From: Blastocatellia bacterium | GTDB taxonomy: Bacteria; Acidobacteriota; Blastocatellia; Chloracidobacteriales; Chloracidobacteriaceae | Reading direction: 5' to 3' | DNA: 64,000 bases | Assembly (NCBI GenBank): GCA_019695185.1 | Contig: JAIBAN010000008.1 | Span: 62,001 to 126,000 of the forward strand | Shown here: piece after piece, positions 37,148 through 38,259 of the stretch | Numbering within the stretch: the stretch's first letter is position 1 | Layout: each line of letters starts with the position of its first letter | Translations under genes and position numbers: made by a program | Notes under the pieces: model-generated | Database searches by the model: none | What the model was told of the DNA's origin: nothing | Seen by the model: only the letters and a program-made list of their open reading frames with translations

Positions 37148-37152
37148 GAAAC

Positions 37153-37312
37153 AGTCTTGGGAGTCTTGGGAGTCCTGAGAGTCCTGAGAGTCTTGGGAGT
37201 CTTGGGAGTCGAAGGAAAAAGACAAAAATAGGATTGACCTTGTCACCTGTCACCTGTCACTTGTTACCTGTTACTCGGTTTTGACTCCCAAGACTCCCAG
37301 GACTCCCAAGAC
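37153..37312. repeat. Nonamer inverted arms around a heptamer core
   Basis: The left arm is six 9-bp units (AGTCTTGGG or AGTCCTGAG, 37153-37206). The core is five 7-bp units of TGTCACC type (37241-37275). The right arm is three 9-bp units (GACTCCCAA type, 37283-37312), the reverse complement of the left. It fills the space between the convergent VWA and di-iron oxidase genes, so it could act as a bidirectional terminator. Confidence 0.9.
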
Positions 37313-37316
37313 TTCT

Positions 37317-37988
37317 TTAGATTTGCCTTTGCAGTCCCATCCAAAAACCTTCCAGAACTTCCAGGGCAGCCTGTGCTCCAGCGTGTAAGGCGGAATGAGT
37401 TTCCGGCGGGAAATGCTCCAGCGCCTTGAGCATGGCTTCCTCGTGCTGGGCTTCAAGGGCCCGGTGAAACGTCCAGTACACGGTGTTCATTCCGGCAAAA
37501 TCAGCAACGGTGTGTTTGAGTTTCATGATTCCGGGAATCAGTTGGTCCCACATGGAAATGGCCATGTGTTCCAGGCCAAAACTGGCTCCCAGAGCAATCA
37601 GGTAATTTTGGTGACCGTAGAGTGTTGCCAATCCTTCGATGTAATTGCGGGTTGAATCAAGCCAGCGGACCTGGGCTGCCTGGGCCGGGTCAATCTCAAT
37701 TGAACGTAAAAAATTATGGTAGAGGTATTCATGCCGCCGCTTGGGGTTTCCGTCACCAAGCTCTGAGGTCAAAATCACCGCCAGTTCATCGGCTGCCGTG
37801 TCATCAGGCGTGTTGGCCAGCAAGGTGGCCAGAATGCGCGGAAAATGTTTGACAAAGGCAAAGAACTGAACGGCAAACTCGTGAAATTCCTCACGAGTGA
37901 TGTTGCCCTGTTCAAACCGGGTCAAGTACGGGTTGTTGATGGCTCCGTGGCGGAGGACGAATTCGCGGAGTTCGAGTGTAAACGACAT
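37317..37988 (-). CDS. Haem-oxygenase-like di-iron oxidase (TenA/PqqC/CADD superfamily)
   Basis: A 223-residue helical protein of the iron-containing branch of the TenA/PqqC superfamily. A plausible six-residue di-iron site is present: Glu76 and His86 (SELGDGNPKRRHEYLY), Glu140 (FGLEHMA), then His175, Glu179 and His182 (FHRALEAQHEEA), the spacing known from Chlamydia CADD. By a from-memory comparison, the self-sacrificed Tyr of CADD is replaced here by Leu next to Tyr21, so para-aminobenzoate synthesis is not the obvious role. AAAGGAG sits 8 bp before the ATG at 37988. Upstream in the same transcript lie a terminator and a 33-codon gene; the substrate is unknown and may be that peptide. Confidence 0.85.
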   Translation of the reverse strand: MSFTLELREFVLRHGAINNPYLTRFEQGNITREEFHEFAVQFFAFVKHFPRILATLLANTPDDTAADELAVILTSELGDGNPKRRHEYLYHNFLRSIEIDPAQAAQVRWLDSTRNYIEGLATLYGHQNYLIALGASFGLEHMAISMWDQLIPGIMKLKHTVADFAGMNTVYWTFHRALEAQHEEAMLKALEHFPPETHSALHAGAQAALEVLEGFWMGLQRQI

Positions 37989-38008
37989 AAGCTGCTCCTT
38001 TTGGACAC

Positions 38009-38056
38009 AAAAAAAGAACCGGCCACGCCCCTCTTTGGAAGGAACGTGGCCGGTTC
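38009..38056 (-). terminator. Strong intrinsic terminator between peptide gene and oxidase
   Basis: On the minus strand GAACCGGCCACG (38056-38045) pairs perfectly with CGTGGCCGGTTC (38027-38016) around a 17-nt loop, followed by seven T residues (38015-38009). It lies 31 bp after the stop of the small peptide gene and 20 bp before the oxidase ATG, so partial read-through or attenuation must feed the oxidase. Confidence 0.9.
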
Positions 38057-38087
38057 GTAATGAAAACGGCTCTTGTGAATTTGTGTG

Positions 38088-38189
38088 TTATGTCATACAC
38101 ACCCGCAAGCAACCGTGGGCCGGCGCGCCCTTCCCGATGGAGGACACGTAATAATAAAAGCCACGGTAGCTGTTGCGGTTCATTTTCAT
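38088..38189 (-). CDS. Putative small peptide (33 residues), possible precursor or leader peptide
   Basis: A short gene not covered by standard length cut-offs. The peptide begins MKMNRNSYRGFYYYVSSIGK and ends in a Gly/Ala/Pro-rich segment with two cysteines (HGCLRVCMT). A second in-frame ATG is two codons later. About three quarters of its third codon positions are G or C, as in real genes here. A consensus-like promoter ends about 42 bp upstream; the ribosome-binding site is weak. It is followed by an intrinsic terminator and then the di-iron oxidase gene. Either a RiPP-like precursor made in excess of its enzyme, or an attenuator leader peptide with a Phe-Tyr-Tyr-Tyr run, would explain this layout. 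No homologue is recognised. Confidence 0.55.
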   Translation of the reverse strand: MKMNRNSYRGFYYYVSSIGKGAPAHGCLRVCMT

Positions 38190-38230
38190 AAACTCAGATT
38201 CACAGATTGAAAGCTATGGAAGACTCATCC

Positions 38231-38259
38231 AAAATAGTGAGACATGGTTTTTCTGTCAA
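38231..38259 (-). promoter_or_regulatory. Sigma-70-type promoter for the small peptide gene
   Basis: On the minus strand a perfect -35 TTGACA (38259-38254) and a -10 TATTTT (38236-38231) are separated by exactly 17 bp. Transcription would start near 38224, about 35 bases upstream of the peptide ATG. This is the best-matching promoter I found in the window. Confidence 0.7.

Follow-up and report, generated by a model that had tools for sequence, protein, structure and literature searches.

The window analysed here is a stretch of 64,000 nucleotides (G000:C33:62001-126000) from an 8.3-Mb genome, G000. On its minus strand lie, in order, a promoter-like TTGACA-17-TATTTT site, a 33-codon open reading frame (ORF), a strong terminator and the gene for a haem-oxygenase-like di-iron oxidase (HDO) (Table 1). 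A VWA-domain gene is convergent with the oxidase gene and a universal stress protein gene is divergent from it; the oxidase is therefore alone on its transcript. The gap between the VWA and oxidase genes (37150-37315) holds a run of short near-identical repeats of the TCTTGGGAGTC type that ends with an inverted counterpart.

Table 1. Features of the oxidase locus and the related leader ORF in genome G012
Feature	Position	Strand	Remarks
Promoter-like site TTGACA-17-TATTTT	38231..38259	-	9-mer CTTGACAGA identical in G012
Leader ORF, 33 codons	38088..38189	-	MKMNRNSYRGFYYYVSSIGKGAPAHGCLRVCMT-stop; counterpart in G012
Control codons TTT TAT TAT TAC (Phe-Tyr-Tyr-Tyr)	38148..38159	-	Predicted antiterminator strongest with ribosome here
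Segment 1	38139..38147	-	Would lie under a ribosome stalled at the Tyr codons; 1:2 hairpin prediction
Segment 2, GGGAAGGGCGCGCCGG	38120..38135	-	Putative antiterminator 5' strand; starts about 12-13 nt past last Tyr codon
Segment 3, terminator 5' arm GAACCGGCCACGTTCCTTCC	38037..38056	-	Two alternative predicted partners, segments 2 and 4
Segment 4 (terminator 3' arm) and seven-T tract	38009..38033	-	From sequence
Oxidase Shine-Dalgarno AAAGGAG	37995..38001	-	From sequence
HDO, 223 aa, PF14518	37317..37988	-	ATG at 37988; last gene of its transcript
G012 leader ORF, 27 codons	L004:789-872		MLKNYAPNRFYYYYRLKTGRDGTVRVC-stop; counterpart of the 33-codon ORF

The elements named in the initial annotation are all present. 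TTGACA lies at 38259-38254 and TATTTT at 38236-38231, with a 17-nt spacer and 10 of 12 consensus matches; three promoter-like sites are found in the region against 1.0 +/- 1.0 in shuffles, and the match taken alone is weak evidence. The ORF has the GC-rich third positions that were described (GC3 0.76). Its start is uncertain because a second in-frame ATG occurs at 38183, and the Shine-Dalgarno sites of this leader and of its G012 counterpart are weak. The terminator spans 38056-38009; its stem, GAACCGGCCACG/CGTGGCCGGTTC, is the perfect 12-bp stem reported earlier; in full it comprises 18 pairs around a 5-nt loop, and the seven T residues come next. AAAGGAG and an oxidase with six metal ligands follow, also as described.

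The 261-nt leader has a fold z of -5.25. No Rfam family reaches threshold in the leader region, and the covariance-model matches with E values as high as 5 do not include a T-box. Sub-threshold Rfam matches to MIR2118 and atoC were taken as chance; those to MIR2118, which fall on both strands at 37150-37315, are presumably due to the short repeats there.

The oxidase matches PF14518 with 78.5 bits (cut-off 28.9), and its predicted structure has a pLDDT of 95.5. All six ligands (E76, H86, E140, H175, E179 and H182) are present; these positions are common to 15 homologues from the phylum, with E or D at the position of E179. Both the fold and the six-ligand set are thus those of an HDO. The closest solved fold is that of the CADD-type p-aminobenzoate synthase CtCADD (PDB 8va9/1rcw; TM 0.83, 16% identity), which has the same six ligand positions. 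In the alignment, the sacrificial Tyr27 and Lys152 of CtCADD are replaced by Leu22 and Leu150; a CADD-type self-sacrificial reaction is therefore not expected. The oxidase scores 55 bits against the CADD profile TIGR04305 (cut-off 200). It also resembles BesC, an HDO acting on an amino acid (PDB 7twa; TM 0.81 for the model, 18-19% identity), and reaches 54.7 bits against the BesC equivalog in NCBIfam, for which the cut-off is 500.

A CADD-type function was rejected on the missing sacrificial residues together with gene content. Chorismate-binding enzymes number three in G000, two in G012 and three in G123, the last two being genomes with close oxidase orthologs; the usual p-aminobenzoate route is therefore plausible there. 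These counts are consistent with a role of the oxidase other than that of CADD, without proving it. Two other genomes, with a single chorismate-binding enzyme each, encode CADD-like proteins in which the Tyr27 and Lys152 positions are retained (L009 in G015, L010 in G055); these proteins are likely to be natural replacements of the usual p-aminobenzoate route.

Conversion of Phe to Tyr was also considered as a role for the oxidase. A biopterin hydroxylase was not found in G000 or G012. A prephenate dehydrogenase match exists in G000, so this role is not forced. In three genomes of the same order (G010, G011 and G013), the prephenate dehydrogenase domain PF02153 was not found; it was found in 14/14 control genomes.

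Ortholog searches of the order, the class, about 400 genomes of the phylum and the class of G123 give three close oxidases in all. G012 is a Blastocatellia MAG from another family of the order to which G000 belongs; its oxidase is 70-71% identical and is the sole close ortholog in the order. A scan of GTDB r220 contigs returned only the G012 record. The third oxidase, from G123, belongs to another class and is 56% identical.

The initial annotation proposed that a homologous peptide should be sought upstream of related oxidases by tblastn. Such a search with the 33 residues against 58 relatives matched only the window's own genome, because the leader diverges too fast; the G012 counterpart was located by reading upstream of the orthologous oxidase. 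The layout in G012 matches that in G000: TTGACA, a 27-codon ORF, a similar terminator (stem AACCGGC...GCCGGTT and a T tract) and the oxidase. The terminator arms are alike in the two genomes, and the G012 peptide has FYYYY and RVC-stop in the same location. The expected association thus holds in G012 and fails in G123, where an ORF of this kind and a terminator are both missing from the region 5' of the oxidase; the enzyme is therefore not dependent on the peptide.

Across 162 genomes of the class there are 11 occurrences of the motif FYYY...VC-stop. Three of these are the leaders of G000 (two overlapping matches) and G012, upstream of orthologous oxidases; the other matches in the class, among those read, are not small leader ORFs. 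The layout is thus beyond chance.

The pattern of substitution differs between the oxidase and the ORF. Between G000 and G012, the oxidase genes differ 58, 40 and 145 times at codon positions 1, 2 and 3 (96 synonymous and 65 non-synonymous codons), whereas the leader ORFs differ 13, 14 and 14 times (4 synonymous and 17 non-synonymous codons). Unlike the oxidase, the ORF has no third-position excess (Fisher p = 0.0035). Only the Tyr run (YYY in G000, YYYY in G012) and the C-terminal RVC are kept in both peptides, R and V through synonymous changes. Outside YYY and RVC, the aligned codons indicate that the leader ORF is without the protein-level constraint that was anticipated for it.

These data bear on the proposal that the peptide is the substrate of the oxidase, that is, a ribosomal precursor modified at Tyr or Cys, with a leaky terminator that does no more than hold the precursor in excess of the enzyme. 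In its favour, a review connects HDOs with ribosomal peptides (PMC13108848); peptide, terminator and oxidase are kept together in two families, and YYY and RVC are retained, with synonymous changes in the R and V codons. Against this, the ORF has no third-position excess, the presumed precursor accompanies the enzyme in G012 but is absent beside the G123 oxidase, and no peptidase, transporter or second maturation enzyme is found among the neighbours examined. The native codons also pair with the terminator better than synonymous ones do. The substrate proposal is consequently unsupported, and such a precursor is very improbable.

A different explanation is offered by RNA pairing, which, unlike the peptide outside YYY and RVC, is kept in both leaders. 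The strands GGGAAGGGCG.GCCGG and GGAAGAGACGG, 12-13 nt past the last Tyr codon, can each pair with their own terminator 5' arm. This 2:3 duplex has a predicted energy of -23.2 kcal/mol in G000 (p = 0.001) and -14.1 in G012 (p = 0.03) relative to dinucleotide shuffles; the 1:2 protector hairpin is clear in G000 (p = 0.002) and not significant in G012 (p = 0.16). Since the nulls were picked after the pairing was seen, these p-values and those of the position test below are guides and not strict tests.

The effect of ribosome position was modelled by stepping a ribosome codon by codon, with the RNA masked to 11 nt past the A-site codon; the gain in antiterminator pairing was calculated for a transcript that stops after the terminator 5' arm. 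This gain peaks on the F/Y run in both genomes, at -10.0 against at most -7.9 elsewhere in G000 and at -12.9 against -5.2 in G012. Shuffling of the spacer reaches such a peak in 0.5% (G000) and none (G012) of 400 cases, and synonymous recoding of the following codons in 0.3% and none of 300. Since the peak is rarely reached under synonymous recoding, it is the RNA, not the peptide it encodes, that carries the signal. In G000, only the positional peak is extreme; the ddG at the Tyr run alone gives p = 0.17 against dinucleotide shuffles. The peak stands with masks of 11-15 nt and becomes indistinct with 7-9 nt, where a codon outside the run does equally well or slightly better in G000; in G012 the same is seen with 7 nt. 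Because the full-length transcript always folds more stably with the terminator, the switch must be kinetic. The switch in classic attenuators is understood to be kinetic.

From these predictions, the ORF most likely encodes the leader peptide of an attenuator in which ribosomes mediate the control of transcription. This attenuator would read codons for tyrosine (possibly Phe/Tyr) and would control a single HDO gene. A short leader ORF lies between promoter and terminator, it carries a conserved run of codons for one amino acid, and in silico a ribosome placed on the Tyr run frees the 2:3 antiterminator in each of the two genomes. With ample Tyr-tRNA, the ribosome would cross FYYY and segment 2, the 3:4 terminator would form and transcription would not reach the oxidase. 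Under a shortage of Tyr-tRNA, the ribosome would stall on the Tyr run and cover segment 1; segment 2, now free, would pair with segment 3, the terminator would not form and the oxidase would be transcribed. We infer that translation, stalling and switching occur in this way in the cell. The position-specific antiterminator pairing in two genomes favours the competing reading of the initial annotation, in which translation of a leader peptide controls the terminator. The two Cys codons lie downstream of segment 2 and cannot be the derepressing signal, because a ribosome that has reached either of them is already beyond that segment. The attenuator model is based on two leaders, those of G000 and G012, and gives no role to the conserved RVC.

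Position-specific pairing at the Tyr run in both genomes also argues against an incidental ORF in front of an ordinary early terminator, or within a small RNA. The frequency of short ORFs in general, the weak promoter match and the lack of any Rfam family at threshold would all fit; the G012 counterpart, with FYYYY and RVC-stop in the same place, would not, and this explanation is very unlikely.

The two conserved features of the peptide, the C-terminal RVC and the aromatic cluster upstream of it, would also suit a nascent-chain arrest leader like TnaC or SpeFL, in which the ribosome halts at RVC near the stop owing to the peptide sequence. The spacing from YYY to the C-terminal Cys differs between the two leaders (17 and 13 residues), and placing a ribosome close to the stop gives the antiterminator no advantage: the probability that the arm is paired upstream is then 0.41 and 0.37, about the free value. 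Arrest of this kind is very unlikely. There is an equally slight chance that the attenuator senses iron or oxygen shortage through a slowed ribosome, not Tyr supply, and so switches on a di-iron oxidase; UUU, UAU, UAC and the later UGU are codons whose tRNAs may all carry iron-dependent modifications near the anticodon.

A tyrosine attenuator would resemble the E. coli pheL/pheA and trpL attenuators (named in PMC11802643). Common to all are a leader ORF in which codons for a single amino acid are clustered, alternative 1:2, 2:3 and 3:4 pairings and an intrinsic terminator in front of the gene. Those systems read Phe or Trp and control a biosynthetic operon; here a Tyr run precedes a lone di-iron oxidase gene in Acidobacteriota. 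According to the account of Neshat 2014 given in PMC11802643, the AroR leader of Corynebacterium glutamicum aroF contains Phe-Tyr-Phe and responds to Phe, not Tyr. As described there, AroR is like the G000 leader in its aromatic codons and ribosome-mediated attenuation, and its target is an aromatic-metabolism gene. The G000 and G012 leaders differ in having three or four Tyr codons after a single Phe, and an HDO as the target. A 2010 survey noted that, until its own Firmicutes case, descriptions of leader peptides had been confined to Proteobacteria and Actinobacteria, and it found almost no functions to predicted attenuators in Acidobacteria (PMC2965389). A literature search found no tyrosine-reading attenuator and none controlling an HDO.

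Regulation of this type suggests that the oxidase reaction is wanted when tyrosine is short; the reaction may bear on tyrosine or another aromatic metabolite. A gene switched on at tyrosine shortage should point to the substrate of its enzyme, which provides a testable handle on an uncharacterised HDO clade. The locus is also a caution that the combination of small ORF, leaky terminator and oxidase can pass for a RiPP locus.

In G012, a transposase-like ORF (L041:75-668), which by eye resembles IS200/IS605 OrfB, flanks the oxidase locus, and a reverse transcriptase (PF00078) lies farther away (L041:3615-4577). These genes may explain the patchy spread of the oxidase.
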